From a virus, in IMG/VR virus record IMGVR_UViG_3300047546_001521, positions 1 through 24,395 of that record: a stretch of 24,395 nucleotides of DNA. One strand, given 5' to 3'. Every line of letters starts with the position of its first letter. Position 1 is the first letter of the stretch. Shown here one piece after another: positions 8,751 through 17,766 of the stretch. A model generated the notes under the pieces. It saw nothing but the letters and a program-made list of their open reading frames with translations, did not search any database and was not told the DNA's origin. Made by a program: the position numbers and the translations under genes.

Positions 8751-8973
8751 GATCCAGCTCCCGAATGATTTTAGTAGTGATTTTCTCAATAGCATCATCA
8801 TCATCGATACACAAGACTTGATCAATCTCACTTTTGTTGAGACCGTCAAGCATCAGTTTTTCAGCCAGCTTTGAAACTTTGATAGAGTGCCTATCACTGA
8901 AAGCATCTAGAAGGCTGATCAATTTTGTTGACACATACAGATTGAGGATTGATTTTCTATCTTTGATCTTCAT
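8737..8973 (-). CDS. Ribbon-helix-helix DNA-binding protein (putative)
   Basis: 78 residues. ILNLYVSTKLISLLDAFSDR followed by HSIKVSKLAEKLMLDGL has the strand-helix-helix spacing of MetJ/Arc-type regulators: an alternating beta strand at 9-15, helix A at 17-28, a turn, and helix B at 33-45. The C-terminus is acidic (CIDDDDAIEKI) then basic. The ATG at 8973 forms an ATGA with the stop of the reading-frame-corrected ssb (TGA 8972-8970), and its end overlaps terS by 14 nt. A repressor of this operon, or a DNA-binding accessory to terminase, would fit. No operator can be assigned to it here. Confidence 0.6.
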   Translation of the reverse strand: MKIKDRKSILNLYVSTKLISLLDAFSDRHSIKVSKLAEKLMLDGLNKSEIDQVLCIDDDDAIEKITTKIIRELDHGKD

Positions 8974-9259
8974 AGAAAAATGATCTCACTGGCAAGGAGT
9001 TTGACATAAGTTTTTCCCTCATGCTGGTTGATCTGGATCTTGCCAATGACGGTGATCCTATCCCCCTTCTTGAGTTGAGTTGAGTTGAGACGAGATTGGC
9101 AAGTTGTCCCCAAACTTCACAATTAAACCAAGTGACTTGATCTTGATCTTTGTATCTCTCTGAATAGGCGACTGAGAAAGTGGCAAGATCTTTTTCACCG
9201 ATCTTCTTGATTTGTGGATCACTGCCAGCTCGGCCAATTAAGTGCATTCTATTGAGCAT
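8957..9259 (-). CDS. ssb: Single-stranded DNA-binding protein, frame broken by 5-nt repeat
   Basis: The first 63 residues are a normal SSB OB-fold start: MLNRMHLIGRAGSDPQIKKI, then ATFSVAYSERY and WFNCEVWGQLANLVST. After four copies of CTCAA (9089-9070) the frame turns to serine/arginine-rich sequence unlike SSB and stops at 8957. With three copies the frame reads STQLKKGDRITVIGKIQINQ and ends KLLASEIIFL with TGA at 8972-8970, a canonical 94-95-residue OB fold whose stop overlaps the next ATG as ATGA. The functional gene is therefore best drawn as 8970-9259 with a 5-nt (or net one-base) correction. It binds single strands during replication and recombination. Even when corrected it lacks the long acidic C-terminal tail of bacterial SSB. 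The cause may be sequencing error, a slippage mutation or phase variation. Confidence 0.85.
   Translation of the reverse strand: MLNRMHLIGRAGSDPQIKKIGEKDLATFSVAYSERYKDQDQVTWFNCEVWGQLANLVSTQLNSRRGIGSPSLARSRSTSMREKLMSNSLPVRSFFYEDQR
9070..9089. repeat. Tandem repeat TTGAG x4 inside ssb
   Basis: Four perfect copies of the pentamer TTGAG on the plus strand (CTCAA in the coding strand). Because 5 is not a multiple of 3, gain or loss of a copy changes frame. Three copies, or six, keep the SSB frame open; four do not. This is a typical substrate for slipped-strand mispairing. Confidence 0.95.
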
Positions 9260-9967: not shown

Positions 9968-10050
9968 AATTTTCTCCTTTATGTTGTGTTATATAAACAC
10001 ATCAGCAACAATTATTATATATTATTATATAATATTTTTTAAGGAGTATC
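9968..10050. promoter_or_regulatory. Divergent AT-rich promoter region, thyX / 91-aa gene
   Basis: An 83-nt gap between divergent genes. It contains a run of A/T with TATAAT on the plus strand at 10028-10033 and on the minus strand within the same stretch. A palindrome, GTGTT-ATATA-AACAC at 9987-10001, could be an operator. No convincing -35 hexamer is seen for either direction, so exact promoters are not assigned. Confidence 0.4.
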
Positions 10051-10879: not shown

Positions 10880-11348
10880 CTATTTTGAGATATGTTGGTA
10901 TGTCATGGGATTGATCTTTAATCCTAGCCAGTCTCTTCAAAGTGCCCGATGGGAGAAAATGATTTCTGCATCAATCCCTGCTAGGATGAGGCAGTGTGAA
11001 ATGGTAGCCAAAGCCGCCGACAAGTTTGAAATCGATCCTTATTTGATGATTGCTTTAGCCTACCATGAAAGCCGGTTTGAAACTGGCTTGACTTCCTCAG
11101 CTGGTGCAAAGGGAGTGATGCAAGTCAAGCGTCAGTTTGTTGATTGTGCTGGATGTAGTGAAATTGAATATGGTATCAAGGCGTACTCGATTTGGCTTGC
11201 TCAAAGCAAAGGCGATGTCTGTCTTGCTTTAGGTAGATATACAGTAGGTAATAAAGGCAAGTGCGGGAAGAGATCTAAAGCAATTGTCAAACTTGCGTCT
11301 GATTTGGCTTGTCTTGCATCAAAAGAAGAGGATTGCTATGACTGCTAA
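10872..11348 (+). CDS. Lytic transglycosylase (SLT-like)
   Basis: 158 residues from the ATG at 10872 (MNNYFEICWYVMG), chosen because GAGG sits 6 nt upstream; an earlier in-frame ATG at 10866 abuts the GAGG, and one at 10836 lies deep in the upstream gene. The SLT/goose-lysozyme pattern is clear: IDPYLMIALAYHESRFETGL (catalytic Glu67), SSAGAKGVMQV (75-85), GIKAYSIWLAQSKGDVCLAL and GRYTVGNKG. The enzyme cleaves the glycan strands of peptidoglycan. The N-terminus is moderately hydrophobic and might be a weak export signal or anchor. It lies in a nucleotide-metabolism operon, away from the M15 endolysin and holin-like gene, so it may act in entry, exclusion or host modification rather than final lysis. 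Confidence 0.82.
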   Translation: MNNYFEICWYVMGLIFNPSQSLQSARWEKMISASIPARMRQCEMVAKAADKFEIDPYLMIALAYHESRFETGLTSSAGAKGVMQVKRQFVDCAGCSEIEYGIKAYSIWLAQSKGDVCLALGRYTVGNKGKCGKRSKAIVKLASDLACLASKEEDCYDC

Positions 11349-11781
11349 AGATAAAGCATTTTTAGATATGGCTGGGATCATGTCTAGTCTCTCTCCATGT
11401 AGTAGAGCCAAAGTGGGTGCGATTATCGTTCGGGGGGATGTGCCAGTAGTGTCATCTTTCAATGGCATTGCCAGAAAACAAGCTGGTCTTTGTGGTGGCG
11501 ATTGCTGTCTTAGAGATGCAAATAAAATACCAAGTGGATCAGACACGCAAATTGGTTGTCATCATGCCGAATTTAATGCAATTGCGAATGCTGCCAAATG
11601 TGGGATAGCCACTGAGGGATGTTCAATTTATGTGACGGCGCCACCTTGTTTGATGTGTGCAAAGCTCATTCATCATGCTGGTATCAAGTCGGTGGTCTAT
11701 GAAAATAAAAGTGATAGATGGATCTCAACTGGCGAGGATTATTTAAAGGCCAATGGAATTGAGGTTGTTAAGATTTATTGA
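11338..11781 (+). CDS. dCMP deaminase (deoxycytidylate deaminase)
   Basis: 147 residues from the ATG at 11338 (MTAKDKAFLDMAG), with AGAGGAT upstream; the longer frame to 11284 lacks an SD and overlaps its neighbour more. Zinc-deaminase motifs are HAE (76-78, in CHHAEFNAI) and PCLMC (103-107, in APPCLMCAKLIHHAGI), giving His, the catalytic Glu and two Cys. AKVGAIIV (24-31) and an additional Cys cluster (LCGGDCCLRD, 51-60) fit deoxycytidylate deaminases with a second zinc site. The reaction is dCMP to dUMP, the substrate of the ThyX made from the same operon. It overlaps the transglycosylase by 11 nt and ends 3 nt before the convergent GroES-like gene. Another CMP/dCMP deaminase specificity is possible. 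Confidence 0.88.
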   Translation: MTAKDKAFLDMAGIMSSLSPCSRAKVGAIIVRGDVPVVSSFNGIARKQAGLCGGDCCLRDANKIPSGSDTQIGCHHAEFNAIANAAKCGIATEGCSIYVTAPPCLMCAKLIHHAGIKSVVYENKSDRWISTGEDYLKANGIEVVKIY

Positions 11782-11784
11782 TTT

Positions 11785-12066
11785 TTATTCCTCAATATCA
11801 AAAGCGTCAAACATCTTTTCGCTATCATCAGCTGAGCAATAAACGCCGATGATGTCTGCCTTTTTCAGTCTAAAAATACCGCCTATGATCGGCGTATTGA
11901 TATAGTCATAGCCTTTTCCTACAGCCTCAATCAGATCGCCGACCTTGAGCTCATCTTCATCTTTGGCTACGGAAATGACTGTGCAAAGAGTTGATGTATC
12001 TCTTTGTCCTTCCCATGTCGCCAAGACATAGCCGCTCAATGGTTTAAGGCAATTTGCTGTTTTCAT
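11785..12066 (-). CDS. GroES-like co-chaperonin (putative)
   Basis: 93 residues. The layout matches Cpn10: an N-terminal LKPLSGYVLATWE resembling the IRPLxDRVLV strand, a mobile-loop-like charged stretch (GQRDTSTLC), GTVISVAK-like TVISVAKDEDELKVGDLIEA (29-48), then IIGGIFRLKKADIIGVY (60-76), which sits where Cpn10 has the L-x-E-x-D-I-L-A-V end. An acidic tail follows. Phage co-chaperonins such as T4 gp31 replace GroES so that GroEL folds the capsid protein. GGAG lies 6-7 nt before the ATG. The gene is preceded by a 179-nt region of inverted repeats. The match is by fold pattern, not strong identity; a small beta-barrel protein of another kind is possible. Confidence 0.5.
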   Translation of the reverse strand: MKTANCLKPLSGYVLATWEGQRDTSTLCTVISVAKDEDELKVGDLIEAVGKGYDYINTPIIGGIFRLKKADIIGVYCSADDSEKMFDAFDIEE

Positions 12067-12245
12067 TCCATGCTCCAGATAGATGCCGGCTCGGTTTTAG
12101 TTTAGCGTATTTTGTGATTTCCTTTTAACCAAATTGAGCCGGCGATTTAAGTTGCCAGCTCTAAAGGTACTACGCACTAGAAACAATTCCACATCTAAAA
12201 AGGTTCGCTTAGGATGAGCTGGCAATGATTAAACAACTGGCCGGC
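12067..12245 (-). promoter_or_regulatory. Structured leader with competing inverted repeats
   Basis: No gene was found in this 179-nt gap between the initiator gene and the GroES-like gene. In minus-strand order it holds TTGCCAGCTC (12225-12216), GAGCTGGCAA (12161-12152), GCCGGCTC (12143-12136) and GAGCCGGC (12092-12085). Elements 1 and 2 pair perfectly over 10 bp and elements 3 and 4 over 8 bp. Alternatively elements 2 and 3 form an 8-bp stem with a 10-nt loop and one U-G pair, which excludes the others. The U-G pair works only in minus-strand RNA. This resembles an attenuator or riboswitch-like leader. GCCGGC also recurs at 12240-12245, so a DNA-binding or replication-origin role is the alternative. 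Confidence 0.5.
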
Positions 12246-13673
12246 TTATTTGATTTCAATATTTATGAAGTTTTCTTGAATTGCCTTAGAGCATTGACTG
12301 ATATGAGAAGTTGAGCAGATGATGAAATTCATTGCTGGTCTATTGAGGATGATCTGGTCAATGTCATTGTGCACATGCATGAGCATTTTATTTGTTGCGT
12401 TTGAGTGGTTGTAAATGATCATGTATTCAACATTGTCAGTCAGTAGCTGAGCAGTGGGAAAGCCACCAGGATTTTCTCTTCCATACTTTTCATACATGTT
12501 TTTTCTTGTTTCAATCAGAAATTCAAATCCGCCATAGAAGATGGATGAGCATCCAAATTGGCGATCATTTCCGTTCTCCATCTGAAAGAGTGCATGCTTA
12601 AAAATGCCTGCTGCTAAATGCTCACCTTTGGCGCGTTCTCCATAGATGAATAGCCTTTGACCTGTTGGGATGGTGATTGATGTTTCTATGGCGTTCTTTT
12701 CATCATCTGAGAGCAATCCGCCAAAGTTTTGCAAAGTCATGTCCATTTGTCTTTTAAGCAAGAGAGTTTTTTGACCATTTAAGGCCTTTATGATTTTGCA
12801 TTGCCTGGATACTTCTCTATCAAAATCTTTGGCCTTGAAATTGTGATTGCAATAGCCAGCCTCTTGATTGATTTTATATCCAGCTGGAGGATCTGGCCAA
12901 GATGAAACAATTTTGATCTGAGTCATATCATCCACCTTGATCATTTCTTCTTTGAAAAGATGCTTCATGTCATTCCATCTAGGTAAATCCAAATCAGCAA
13001 ATCCAGATGAAGAAGGCTTGTCGGTTGGTGGATGCTCCTTAATCCTGTTCTTAATAGAAGTATCTTCCTCTCTTAATAATGTGGTGTCACTGGTGGCAAG
13101 ATTTCTGCCACTGGTGGCAAGTTTTCCGCCATTGGTGGCACTAGGTGGTGCTATTGGTGACACCAGGGTAGTGCCATTGGTGGCACTAGGTGGTGCTATT
13201 GGTGACACCAGGGGGGGGAGGCTTAAATTATTTGAATTTAGGATGCTATTTAAGATTGCTTGAGCTTCTAGCCTGATCTTTAAATCTTTGTCTTCTGGAG
13301 GCAATGCACTGAGATTGATATCTTTAAAGTCTCCCCAAGATCGCCAGTATCTGACAATCATTTTAGAGGTAAAACACCAAGTATTTGCCTTCTTTTCTTT
13401 TTCATGTGCGTTTGCTTCTTTTACTAGAAAGCCATGATCACAAAGTGCAGTCAATCCCCTCATTGCCGGTCTTTCAGCAATTCCCAAGATGTTTGCAATT
13501 TCCATATACCTTTGAGTGATTGCCAGCTGACTACACATAGGCATGACATCATAAAGCTCTAAAAGTAACATGACAATTCTTTGACCATTTGGGATTGTTG
13601 CCATGGTTTTGCATCTGCTGATATTGCAGGCCACTCCCCAGCTAGTGATCTGTTTTGAAAAAAGTTTGCTCAA
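12246..13673 (-). CDS. Replication initiator with winged-HTH and degenerate AAA+ domain
   Basis: 475 residues starting at TTG (13673), chosen for the SD AAAGGAGAGAAA directly upstream; the first ATG is Met24. Residues about 25-110 form a winged HTH (GQRIVMLLLELYDVM, YMEIANILGIAERPAMRGLT, HGFLVKE) like phage replication initiators. Residues 155-184 are two copies of a 15-residue Pro/Ala/Thr linker repeat. The C-terminal region resembles DnaC/IstB AAA+ loaders: GQRLFIYGERAKGEHLAAGI (338-357) occupies the P-loop, but the GxxGxGKT residues are gone; EYMIIYN (416-422) replaces the Walker B Asp; FIICSTSH (around 451) matches sensor I. It probably binds the origin and recruits the helicase encoded on the other side of the shared promoter region. 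ATP hydrolysis is unlikely unless another subunit supplies it. Confidence 0.7.
   Translation of the reverse strand: MSKLFSKQITSWGVACNISRCKTMATIPNGQRIVMLLLELYDVMPMCSQLAITQRYMEIANILGIAERPAMRGLTALCDHGFLVKEANAHEKEKKANTWCFTSKMIVRYWRSWGDFKDINLSALPPEDKDLKIRLEAQAILNSILNSNNLSLPPLVSPIAPPSATNGTTLVSPIAPPSATNGGKLATSGRNLATSDTTLLREEDTSIKNRIKEHPPTDKPSSSGFADLDLPRWNDMKHLFKEEMIKVDDMTQIKIVSSWPDPPAGYKINQEAGYCNHNFKAKDFDREVSRQCKIIKALNGQKTLLLKRQMDMTLQNFGGLLSDDEKNAIETSITIPTGQRLFIYGERAKGEHLAAGIFKHALFQMENGNDRQFGCSSIFYGGFEFLIETRKNMYEKYGRENPGGFPTAQLLTDNVEYMIIYNHSNATNKMLMHVHNDIDQIILNRPAMNFIICSTSHISQCSKAIQENFINIEIK
13122..13218. repeat. In-frame 45-bp direct repeat x2 plus G8 tract
   Basis: Two 45-bp units (13122-13166 and 13167-13211) are identical over 41 nt (13128-13168 and 13173-13213) and encode the duplicated linker LVSPIAPPSATNG in the initiator gene. 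Shorter related copies of CCACTGGTGGCAAG lie beside it. A run of eight G at 13211-13218 adjoins the repeat. Change in the 45-bp copy number keeps the frame; change in the G run would not. Confidence 0.9.
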
Positions 13674-13701
13674 TTTCTCTCCTTTTGTCTTGAGTCATCA
13701 C

Positions 13702-13731
13702 ACTATAAACAAAACATTTTAAATAAGTAAA
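13702..13731 (-). promoter_or_regulatory. Promoter of initiator gene with embedded operator O1
   Basis: On the minus strand TTTACT (13731-13726) and TATAGT (13707-13702) are 18 nt apart, followed about 30 nt later by the SD and TTG start. Between them lies TTTAAAATGTTTTGTTTATA (13723-13704), matching the operator at 15871-15890 (in reverse orientation) in 17 of 20 positions. Repressor binding here would block RNA polymerase. Confidence 0.6.
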
Positions 13732-13739
13732 TCTTTTTG

Positions 13740-13769
13740 TTGATTTTTTTAAATGAAAGTGTTTAATTG
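13740..13769 (+). promoter_or_regulatory. Promoter of Cro-like gene with embedded operator O2
   Basis: TTGATT (13740-13745) is a -35 candidate, with a weak TAATTG -10 18 nt downstream (13764-13769). TTTAAAT-GAAAGT-GTTTAAT (13748-13767) overlaps the spacer and resembles operators O1 and O3. Its centre is 44 bp from that of O1, about four helical turns. The SD and ATG of the 78-aa HTH gene follow, suggesting autoregulation. Confidence 0.5.
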
Positions 13770-13798
13770 ATTTAGATTGTCAATCAAGGAGATAACAC

Positions 13799-14035
13799 AT
13801 GACAACAAAATCACAAATCAAGATCAATAAGATCAGAATGTATTCCGGCCTTACCGTCAAAGAAATCGCTCAAAGAATGGATCTCACTGTCCAGCAGGTT
13901 TACAAATATTTGGATGATGAAAAGAGTTGTAAGCTGGCCACTGCTGAGAAACTTGAGCGTGCAACAAATGGAATTAGCCATCAATTTTTTATGTATCCAG
14001 TACCAACTGCATTGCAATTCTTGCCTAAGAGATAG
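13799..14035 (+). CDS. Cro-like HTH regulator
   Basis: 78 residues. Residues about 17-38 (GLTVKEIAQRMDLTVQQVYK) form a helix-turn-helix with the A, G/M and I/V spacing of small phage regulators, followed by a helix (TAEKLERATNG). The C-terminus (HQFFMYPVPTALQFLPKR) could be a dimer arm. The SD AAGGAG is 7 nt before the ATG. It is the first gene of the rightward replication operon and is divergent from the initiator, the usual place for a Cro- or Cox-like switch protein. Three palindromic sites flank its gene set, one in its own promoter and one in that of the initiator, so it is the natural candidate to bind them. Binding is inferred. Confidence 0.75.
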   Translation: MTTKSQIKINKIRMYSGLTVKEIAQRMDLTVQQVYKYLDDEKSCKLATAEKLERATNGISHQFFMYPVPTALQFLPKR

Positions 14036-14046
14036 GAATAAAACAT

Positions 14047-15825
14047 ATGTTGACCGATTATGAGATTGCTCATTGGGGAGCATGGAAAGAATGGGAGTCT
14101 TACGCCAGCCAGTTAAGGATGGCTGATCCAGCTAGGTTCAACAATGAATATGCTGTTTGGTGCAAAAAAAATGATGAGATTGAGAAGAATAATCCCACCT
14201 CATACAATGAGTTTATGGAAAGATTTCCAGGCGCCAGCATTAGGCCAAATCATCAAGAAGATAAGCACCAGCAGGCAGAAAGAGAAAAATATGTTGCGGT
14301 GATCACCAAAGCCGAAGATCAATTCAAGTATACGCTTAGAAAGATCTGCAACTCTTATAGCTTCTTCACAAAAGAAGATTTATACATTCCATTCATCCGA
14401 GCTGCTAAGCTGATTAAAACGATGTGGATGATTTCTTCAGAAACAAGCATTGATGAAAGTCTGCCGGAATTTGTATCTGGTGATAATGGATTGCTCTATA
14501 ATCTTGACCGAGTCAGCTTCTCAAAAGTCAAAGATCATCCATGCAAAGCCGCAGTATTTAGGCTGATCAAGAATGAAGATATCTTTTTTAATGACACATT
14601 CATTGCGATTTATAGAGCATCTAAGACACTAAATGATGCTGGTAAGATGATCGATCTTTGCAATGTGCATGATCAGTATAGACGCCAATTTAAAGACTTT
14701 GAAAATGAATTGCCAGAGATGTCTGATCCCGATTATATCGGTACTATTCTGACAACAATTGAGTCAGAATATCAAACGCTTTTGACTCCATGGCATGTTG
14801 AGCAGTGCATCATGGAGCATCTGCATTGGTATGTGACTGCCAAGACGTCATTCTATGACGATCTAAAATCAACACTGCTTAGGCAGGGAGTCAGCAAAGA
14901 GTGGATTGATCAAAGATATCAAGCTAAAATCCAGGAATTAAAGGCCTGCATTCCCGTTAAGCTGGAAAGTTTTTCTGATCAAGTGGAGAGTGCGATTTTC
15001 TCTTTGGAGACCAAATCGGATGCACTTAGCACCGATCTGACTGATCTTGACTATATGCTCAAGCTAAGAAGAGGATGCCTTTATTATATCGGCGGCCGGC
15101 CTGGTATGGGAAAGACGGCGCTCTCTCTTCATCTTCTCCAGTTGTCCCAGCTTAGAGAGAATAAGAAAAAGACTTTGTTTTTTAGCTTAGAGATGAGCAA
15201 AGAGCAGCTTATTCACCGACTTGTCTGCTCAGTTGGTGAGATCAATGCTAGTGCGATCAAAGACAAAAGACTAAGCGAATTTGATCATGATCTAAGATTG
15301 GCCTATCAGAAGGCATCAAATGAAATCAAATCGCTCAACATCCATCTGGTTGATACTGGCATTGAGACCATTGCATCAGTGCAAACCATTTGCGAGCAAG
15401 TGAAGGATAAGGATGGGGAAGTTGGCTTGATCATCATTGATTATCTCCAGCTTCTAAAAGGCACAAGCAAGAATAGAACTCAGATGAGAGAGCAAGAAGT
15501 AAGTGAAATCAGCCGAGCATTAAAACTTCTTGCCAAGGCCTGCGATTGTCCAGTTATTTGCCTTACTCAGCTAAATAGACAAGTTGAAGGCAGGCTTGAC
15601 AAGAGGCCTGGATTAAGCGACCTTCGTGAGTCTGGATCACTTGAGCAAGATGCCGATGCAGTACTGATGCTTTATCGTGCAGACTACTATGATAAAGATG
15701 CACCCTCTGATCTTGAAATCATTGTCTCTAAAAATAGGCATGGATCACTGGGGACCGCTGTCGTTGACTTCAATCGTGAGACTCAAAAAATATCAAATAT
15801 CAATCGAAATTCTTACAAGTGGTAA
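14047..15825 (+). CDS. DnaB-type replicative helicase with long novel N-terminus
   Basis: 592 residues. The C-terminal third is a RecA-like DnaB core: Walker A GRPGMGKT (350-357), FFSLEMSKEQLIHRLVCSVG, Walker B LIIIDYLQLL (Asp465), EVSEISRALKLLAKACDCPV and QLNR, then DLRESGSLEQDADAVLMLYR. It would unwind the phage replication fork 5' to 3' as a hexamer. The first 310 residues do not look like the usual 100-150-residue DnaB N domain. They are helical, aromatic and charged (HWGAWKEWESYASQL, RKICNSYSFFTKEDLYIPFI, TPWHVEQCIMEHLHWYVTAK) and may hold primase-, loader- or initiator-binding surfaces. It starts 11 nt after the Cro-like gene with a modest AGGAA SD. The loader-like initiator is encoded divergently nearby. 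Confidence 0.9.
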   Translation: MLTDYEIAHWGAWKEWESYASQLRMADPARFNNEYAVWCKKNDEIEKNNPTSYNEFMERFPGASIRPNHQEDKHQQAEREKYVAVITKAEDQFKYTLRKICNSYSFFTKEDLYIPFIRAAKLIKTMWMISSETSIDESLPEFVSGDNGLLYNLDRVSFSKVKDHPCKAAVFRLIKNEDIFFNDTFIAIYRASKTLNDAGKMIDLCNVHDQYRRQFKDFENELPEMSDPDYIGTILTTIESEYQTLLTPWHVEQCIMEHLHWYVTAKTSFYDDLKSTLLRQGVSKEWIDQRYQAKIQELKACIPVKLESFSDQVESAIFSLETKSDALSTDLTDLDYMLKLRRGCLYYIGGRPGMGKTALSLHLLQLSQLRENKKKTLFFSLEMSKEQLIHRLVCSVGEINASAIKDKRLSEFDHDLRLAYQKASNEIKSLNIHLVDTGIETIASVQTICEQVKDKDGEVGLIIIDYLQLLKGTSKNRTQMREQEVSEISRALKLLAKACDCPVICLTQLNRQVEGRLDKRPGLSDLRESGSLEQDADAVLMLYRADYYDKDAPSDLEIIVSKNRHGSLGTAVVDFNRETQKISNINRNSYKW

Positions 15826-16899: not shown

Positions 16900-17766
16900 A
16901 TGGCTTCTCAAAAATTACTAGACTCCCTATCAGATATCAATGCAATCGCTGACAGCATGGATCAACTCGTAAAGCTCGCTGGCTATCTCACTGGTGGCAC
17001 CAACTGGAATGCTCAACAACTTGTAACTGCCTATCTTTCTTATGGCATGATGCATGGATGGAATATCGCACAAACAATGGAAAAAATGAATGTCATTAAA
17101 GGCAAGATCACTTATCAAGCCGCCACTATGTTTGGCATCGTGATTGCTTCTTCTAAGTGCAAATCCTGGAAGGTGTTGACCAATTCCGATGTTGAATGCT
17201 CTCTTGAATTCGTTCGTGCTGACAACAATCAAAAATATACAGTGCAATTCACCATTGAAATGGCGCAGCGCCAAGGCCTTACAAATAATAGACAATGGCA
17301 GACCATGCCAAAGCAAATGCTCATGGCCAGATGCAAATCAATGGCAGTGCGTGATGTCTTTGGTGATGTGATCAGTGGCTATGATGCAGTTGAGATCGCC
17401 GATAGCATGGACATGTCAGAAGAAGAAAGACTTGAGATCTTGAATAATGAGCTTGATACTCAAATCACAACAAGACAAGCAGCAGCGCCAGCTAAGCAAA
17501 AGACTCAAGTCAAGACTCAGCCAGTGCAACCGGTGCAAGTGCAACCAGTGCAACCAGTGCAACCAGTGCAACCAGTGCAACCAGTGCAACCAGTGCAAGT
17601 GCCACCAACACAAAGCAAATCGCCACAACCTGCTCCATTCCCAAGTGAGCAGAAAGCAGCTATCACACAGCACGCGTACAATGACACATCAAGAAAAGAG
17701 TGGATAGATGATGATATGGATGAAGATGATGCCAGAGACTGGAAAGCGTCATGGGGGATTAAATAA
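16900..17766 (+). CDS. RecT-like single-strand annealing protein
   Basis: 288 residues. Residues about 30-170 follow the RecT/phage annealing-protein pattern: YLSYGMMHGWNIAQTMEKMN, VIKGKITYQAATMFGIVIAS, a beta region ending YTVQFTIEMAQRQGLTNNRQ, WQTMPKQMLMARCKSMAVRD, VFGDVISGYDAVEIAD. Such proteins bind single strands and anneal homologous DNA in phage recombination and replication. Residues 208-233 are a low-complexity PVQ array encoded by a 9-bp repeat, joining the core to an acidic, Trp-containing tail (EWIDDDMDEDDARDWKASWG) that may contact SSB or the replisome. AGG lies before the ATG. No partner exonuclease is seen in the window. The gene ends convergently with the reductase, overlapping by 8 nt. 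Confidence 0.75.
   Translation: MASQKLLDSLSDINAIADSMDQLVKLAGYLTGGTNWNAQQLVTAYLSYGMMHGWNIAQTMEKMNVIKGKITYQAATMFGIVIASSKCKSWKVLTNSDVECSLEFVRADNNQKYTVQFTIEMAQRQGLTNNRQWQTMPKQMLMARCKSMAVRDVFGDVISGYDAVEIADSMDMSEEERLEILNNELDTQITTRQAAAPAKQKTQVKTQPVQPVQVQPVQPVQPVQPVQPVQPVQVPPTQSKSPQPAPFPSEQKAAITQHAYNDTSRKEWIDDDMDEDDARDWKASWGIK
17521..17598. repeat. 9-bp tandem repeat array (CCAGTGCAA) encoding PVQ
   Basis: CCAGTGCAA at 17521 and a variant CCGGTGCAA are followed by a partial GTGCAA (17539-17544) and six perfect copies from 17545 to 17598. Unit length keeps the reading frame, so copy number only alters linker length in the annealing protein. Confidence 0.95.

Follow-up and report, generated by a model that had tools for sequence, protein, structure and literature searches.

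A conserved two-hairpin element with covarying stems behind a promoter-like motif in uncultured phages

The viral record IMGVR_UViG_3300047546_001521 (24,395 bases, analysed over its whole length and here called the window), for which no close cultured relative was found, carries on its minus strand an element of two successive hairpins between a DnaC-like gene and a GroES-like gene. Both stems are conserved and covary among related phages, the element keeps a fixed place directly after a promoter-like motif, it occurs at about one copy per genome, and the genes around it are exchanged. A sequence-only reading of the window had proposed an RNA switch in which four hairpin arms pair either as 1:2 plus 3:4 or as 2:3; the conserved state is the two successive hairpins, named H1 (arms 1:2) and H2 (arms 3:4), and not an alternation of folds. 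Since the element recurs in unrelated phages before different genes or before none, it looks like a portable regulatory cassette or a small-RNA gene, and we consider a portable promoter-hairpin cassette probable, with either a small RNA or a structured 5′ leader as its product, the transcription, start site, binding partner and regulatory effect of which are predicted here from sequence. As an RNA family, the hairpins combine stems that covary with a loop motif that does not vary; the family is spread over several groups of phages without cultured relatives and is absent from Rfam. If the RNA is expressed, two questions become testable, namely by what means phages bring newly captured genes under regulation and which bacterial factor many unrelated phages address with one loop.

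Covarying stems and the proposed alternation

Relatives of the window were collected with a scan for the DnaC-like protein (five loci), with pattern scans (more loci) and with a scan for TerL (72 more), while a search using the GroES-like protein alone yielded none; the contigs come from freshwater sites. About ten versions of the element, all at the same locus, constitute type A, in which the last 70 bases are near-invariant, with neighbouring proteins down to 50–85% identity in some relatives. More distant phages carry, in the same place, elements of type B (L050, L051, L054, L064, L072, L081, and L095) or type C (L055, L058, L062, L063, and L091), which follow the plan of type A with different arm sequences; the tail AUCUAUCUG was found again after the last hairpin in several types.

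In an alignment of 16 sequences from the three types, 88.6% of the cells of 1:2 and 3:4 were standard pairs, and two-sided changes were present in 31 cells (shuffled mean 13.7, 0/500 shuffles as high), while shifting the partner arm one to three columns out of register lowered the pairing to 27–39%. The 3:4 figures are underestimates, as MAFFT mis-registers arm 4 in several rows, and the alignment of H1 across types misplaces 3′ arms. The arms of relatives have wholly different sequences and retain their pairing, and thus the compensatory changes for which the sequence-only reading had suggested comparing related phages are present in both 1:2 and 3:4. In the window itself the two stems pair perfectly over 10 and 8 pairs, as that reading described. 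Close inverted repeats amounting to the 10-base-pair (bp) plus the 8-bp set occurred together in 40 of 20,000 block-shuffled copies of a 191-nucleotide (nt) region, an approximate figure given that the shuffle moved two-base blocks; the four arms are unlikely to be a product of chance. Single-sequence folding of the whole stretch modestly beat shuffled copies on both strands (z −1.5 for the minus and −1.9 for the plus strand), and because z is only modest on either strand the RNA structure is unproven by folding energy alone, whereas the comparison of relatives does prove it. A possible kissing contact between the loops of H1 (GCGUA) and H2 (UACGC) is invariant in type A and absent in types B and C.

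The proposed alternative stem 2:3 can indeed form in the window, with 8 pairs that include one U–G and enclose the 10-nt loop AACUUAAAUC, and constrained folding placed it within 0.3 kcal/mol of 1:2 plus 3:4 (window ensemble values of 0.89 for 1:2, 0.90 for 3:4, and 0.10 for 2:3). Among relatives, however, its pairing amounted to 65.2% versus 65.0% in shuffles, with 0 two-sided changes, the stem is absent in types B and C, and constrained folding of seven relatives made it worse by 3.0–11.3 kcal/mol. As 1:2 and 3:4 covary and 2:3 does not, RNA structure is supported and the two-state switch is not; having failed both the covariation and the energy comparison, 2:3 is better explained as a by-product of arms 1–4 being alike in the lineage of the window. 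Mutually exclusive stems that are both conserved, as in riboswitches and attenuators, were not found, nor was a stem that would act in one state as a terminator or sequester the ribosome site: there is no terminator-like site in 11600–12700, and the pairing of the possible ribosome-binding site CUGGAG shows no conserved difference between the folds. With no Rfam riboswitch recovered either, an attenuator or riboswitch built on these mutually exclusive folds is scarcely credible, despite the near tie in energy in the window. No transfer RNA or transfer-messenger RNA was found.

Table 1. Features of the element and adjoining genes in the window
Feature	Position	Strand	Sequence or remark
Promoter-like motif TTGAAA-N20-TTTAAT	12228..12259	-	TTGAAATCAAATAAGCCGGCCAGTTGTTTAAT; overlaps 3′ end of DnaC-like gene; profile score 34.7
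Arm 1	12225-12216	-	TTGCCAGCTC
Arm 2	12161-12152	-	GAGCTGGCAA
Arm 3	12143-12136	-	GCCGGCTC
Arm 4	12092-12085	-	GAGCCGGC
H1, first hairpin (arms 1:2)	12152..12225	-	10 bp, 54-nt loop
H2, second hairpin (arms 3:4)	12085..12143	-	8 bp plus inner stem 12133-12127 / 12102-12096
Conserved inner motif	12164..12175	-	GCGUAGUACCUU (family form GCGUAGCACCUU); just 5′ of the H1 3′ arm
Element tail	12067..12084	-	AUCUAUCUGGAGCAUGGA; possible ribosome-binding site CUGGAG
DnaC-like gene	12246-13673	-	directly 5′ of the element
GroES-like (chaperonin-10) gene	11785..12066	-	93 amino acids; frequent but optional passenger
Deaminase gene	11284-11781	+	convergent; meets the GroES-like gene

The shared loop, the promoter-like motif and the changing neighbours

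Two stretches are common to the H1 loops: the family motif, which adjoins the 3′ arm, and CCU/ACCUUUUU, which lies towards the 5′ side. H1 was also found before a thymidine kinase gene (L073, L074, and L079) and as a third hairpin (L003/L013), and two pattern scans, filtered for complementary arms, added further members (L112, L177, L166, L188, L198, L207, L217, L219, L221, L226, L227, L236, and L240); an adenine methylase gene either follows H1 in L166 or is in frame with it. The genes preceded by H1 thus comprise GroES-like, thymidine kinase, adenine methylase, and unknown ones. For 15 distinct H1 arm pairs, 119/120 inner pairs were standard, versus a mean of 68 and a maximum of 95 for permuted arms; the loop-closing pair is always C–G, and each of the other seven pairs occurs as three or four types. 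Nine of the ten virus records that were searched whole hold one copy and the remaining one, that of L013, holds two; a second H1 copy is also present in L112. In L188, L198 and this second copy of L112, a sigma-70-like sequence is followed by H1 and then by a long hairpin (16 bp in L112 and L198), the tail of which is U-rich, and in L227 a 14-bp stem itself is followed by UUCUUUUU; judging from their layout, these four look like complete short promoter-to-terminator RNA genes, in two distant phage groups. No match to Rfam 15 reached the gathering score; those obtained at E ≤ 10 or E ≤ 2 all stayed below it and were to families that are eukaryotic, viral, or short and bacterial.

The conserved loop motif could also open the reading frame of a short leader peptide (AUG/GUG CGU AGC ACC UU, Met-Arg-Ser-Thr-Phe/Leu), as several of its third-position changes are synonymous (CGU/CGA, AGC/AGU, ACC/ACA/ACU) and the frame in L177 runs up to the following start codon, where it closes with TGATG. 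We hold this to be highly unlikely, because the frame is broken in L015 (CGU UGA) and L081 (ACU UAG), L073/L074 have GCG/ACG in place of the start codon, a consistent ribosome-binding site is missing, and conservation stops after five codons.

Each version has TTGAAA-N20-TGTTTAAT/G, or a sequence close to it, on its upstream side; arm 1 begins 2–4 nt past this motif in every type. With a profile built from 19 distinct sites, the element-associated sites scored 19.7–38.2 and all other matches in 1.56 Mb of both-strand sequence at most 18.5, a gap that is partly circular since the scored sites include the training set; the 18.5 match itself lies after the DnaC-like gene in L045. Outside that circularity stand the constant length of 32 bases and the recurrence of the motif behind unrelated upstream genes. 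Its sequence suggests that TTGAAA-N20-TGTTTAAT is a promoter. The stretch TGATGTGTTTATATAACACA between the ThyX gene and a gene for 91 amino acids (window 9985–10010, minus strand, and the same place in L014) also has a TGTGTTTA core, which may be a general promoter core of this phage group.

The sequence-only reading had taken the hairpins for the leader of the GroES-like gene. They do lie upstream of this gene in the window and in L004, L006, L010, L015, L050, L055, L058, and L095, and a more diverged GroES-like gene (L064/L065) or a fragment (L014) follows in others. In other relatives, a deoxyribosyltransferase-like gene (L005) or a long unknown gene (L002, L062, L091) follows behind a second similar motif, and in L003, L013, L016, L054, and L072 no gene stands between the element and the convergent deaminase gene. 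Because other genes or none follow in these relatives, a role of the element as leader is not specific to the GroES-like gene. On the other side, the DnaB-regulator-DnaC block of L010, L013, L015, and L016 is a different one (22–35% protein identity), with the element kept in place. The helicase, regulator, and loader genes (window 12246–15825) are exchanged as a block between phages otherwise 80–100% identical, and one border of the exchanged block lies just upstream of the element. About half of the related loci have a SegE-like GIY-YIG homing endonuclease gene adjoining the element on its upstream side (e.g., L002 5853–6596, L010 3676–4590, L058 336–908), and these genes are thus a possible source of the frequent exchange at this locus.

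L112 (reverse strand, about 1600–1700) and L177 (748–1200) are near-identical upstream, and a gene for 134 amino acids that follows H1 in L177 is absent in L112; the start codon of this gene overlaps the hairpin tail (CTATCTGATGG). Tandem extra copies of the second-hairpin type (UCAGCCUC...GAGGCUGA) were observed in L062 (3725–3790), L091 (about 765–830), and L058 (about 1480–1560), with CUAUCUG or a sequence close to it after every copy, and this arrangement suggests that whole hairpins duplicate and recombine.

Candidate roles of the element

In the cassette reading that we favour, the RNA would start at or within the first bases of arm 1, from the promoter-like sequence at 12259–12228, H1 would fold once arm 2 is made and H2 afterwards, and both would coexist without alternation. 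The large loop of the 5′-terminal H1 would present the conserved motif (CCU/ACCUUUUU on its 5′ side, GCGUAGCACCUU on its 3′ side), most simply as a site where a protein or another RNA can dock. The element would then be the leader of whichever gene is downstream, here the GroES-like one, and a short RNA where none follows, and recombination in the flanks would swap, add, or remove the following gene, probably aided by the adjacent GIY-YIG (SegE-like) genes. More tentatively, it could be an undescribed phage small-RNA family common to unrelated uncultured phages, the loop of which (CCUU...GCGUAGCACCUU) would bind, from within a varying stem, a common bacterial factor, while newly acquired genes would find in the element a landing pad that supplies both a promoter and a structured 5′ end.

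The earlier argument that the hairpins act as minus-strand RNA holds on balance, as L004, L050, L073, L166, and L198 contain wobble pairs that are possible only in RNA of this strand, and the element is directional, with the promoter-like motif upstream and the conserved loop motif on one side. Several points weigh against this picture. The C–A mismatches in L016 and L002 fit the opposite strand, and a spacer of 20 nt is unusually long if the motif is a sigma-70 promoter. For the most distant members (L112, L166, L177, L188, L198, and L227), complementarity was part of the selection of the arms and the search pattern dictated the motif; types A, B, and C and the L073 group, in contrast, were located by their position. 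Type A alone shows paired length changes only, as in H2 (GCCGGCUC/GAGCCGGC versus GCCGGUC/GACCGGC in relatives, L004 being intermediate), and no two-sided substitutions. Template switching between inverted repeats in DNA can also yield paired changes.

If the inverted repeats were instead conserved as a DNA-level element, i.e., a recombination or homing-endonuclease target or a replication site, this would suit the GIY-YIG genes inserted right beside them, the frequent gene exchange at the locus, and the proximity of helicase and loader genes. Such a role is unlikely, given that the replication module was swapped with the element unchanged, that the layout is directional, that the large loops (30–66 nt) are ill-suited to cruciforms, and that the wobbles of the five loci named above pair only as RNA of this strand; an initiator-specific replication origin in particular was set aside as unlikely, the element being constant while the replication module changes. 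An autonomous small RNA of 75–150 nt, consisting of H1 with or without H2 and binding a host protein or RNA in trans through its loop, with the downstream genes as accidental passengers, is possible but doubtful. It would account for the five loci that keep the element without a downstream gene, for the promoter-H1-terminator layout of L188, L198, L227, and the second copy of L112, for the single copy in most genomes, and for a loop that is conserved while the stems vary freely. Many relatives of this phage, however, have a gene starting just past the hairpins, the loop pairs with the translation starts of the window no better than shuffled loops do, and a U-tract after either hairpin is lacking in the window group. 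A cis-acting antiterminator leader, in which two 5′ hairpins bind RNA polymerase and allow read-through, is known as putL from phage HK022, where two stem-loops stand at the start of a phage transcript right after a promoter (PMC9378689). The element has its two stem-loops right after a promoter-like motif, and the late genes of the window (TerL onward) lie on the same strand, past a short opposite-strand island, as would be expected of such a leader. We nevertheless regard it as improbable, since the element (about 140 nt) is twice the size of putL (about 70 nt; PMC9378689), a sequence relation to putL is not shown, one-hairpin (L073, L177) and terminator-ended (L188, L198, L227) versions exist, and downstream genes can carry promoter-like motifs of their own.

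The favoured cassette also resembles other phage systems in part. Promoter early stem-loops (PeSLs) of T4-type phages were reportedly described by Arbiol et al. in 2010 and Comeau et al. in 2014, under titles that speak of promoter-terminator motifs. PeSLs have a high density in shuffled regions of T4-type phages (PMC4503421), and they share with the element a promoter or promoter-like sequence joined to a stem-loop, a compact intergenic cassette, an accessory-gene region, and gene exchange between related phages. By those titles, the stem-loops of PeSLs are terminators, whereas the window has no terminator-like site and terminator-like forms appear only in distant phages, and PeSLs occur in many copies, unlike the roughly one copy of the element per genome. 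The element further differs from PeSLs in its conserved loop motif, its varying stems, and its usually two or more hairpins. Nor is the window from a T4-type phage: its TerL gave a single weak match (29% over 38%) among 50,697 phage records. By the features tested (no terminator, one copy, a phage that is not T4-type), the element is not a PeSL. The free-standing GIY-YIG (SegE-type) loci of T-even phages offer a parallel in the SegE-like gene beside about half of the loci, but the element is equally present without such a gene (window, L004, L050, L055).

Neighbouring genes and minor observations

On the minus strand the order is DnaC-like gene, element, and GroES-like gene, followed by the convergent deaminase gene. 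The GroES-like protein had no Pfam or PHROG match by sequence. Its AlphaFold model (predicted local distance difference test score, pLDDT, 84) had chaperonin 10 structures as best Foldseek matches (4pj1 with E 4e-4, 1p3h, and 5opx; template modelling score about 0.6), a predicted Cpn10 fold that agrees with the identity first given to it. Searches for similar DNA in cultured phages, plasmids, and E. coli returned no matches or chance-level ones. Five genome contigs with GGTTAAATGGAAATCACA were discarded as chance matches lacking the element, as were the viral matches L018–L023 to this pattern.

The gene of the single-strand-binding protein (window 8957–9259, minus strand) is matched by relatives in two frames (residues 1–61 and about 57–100), its C-terminal third being frame-shifted relative to L004, L006, and others, which is either a real frameshift or a sequence error. 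In the RecT-like annealing protein (window 16900–17766, plus strand), PVQ repeats follow one another (VQPVQPVQ..., from about residue 205 to 240).
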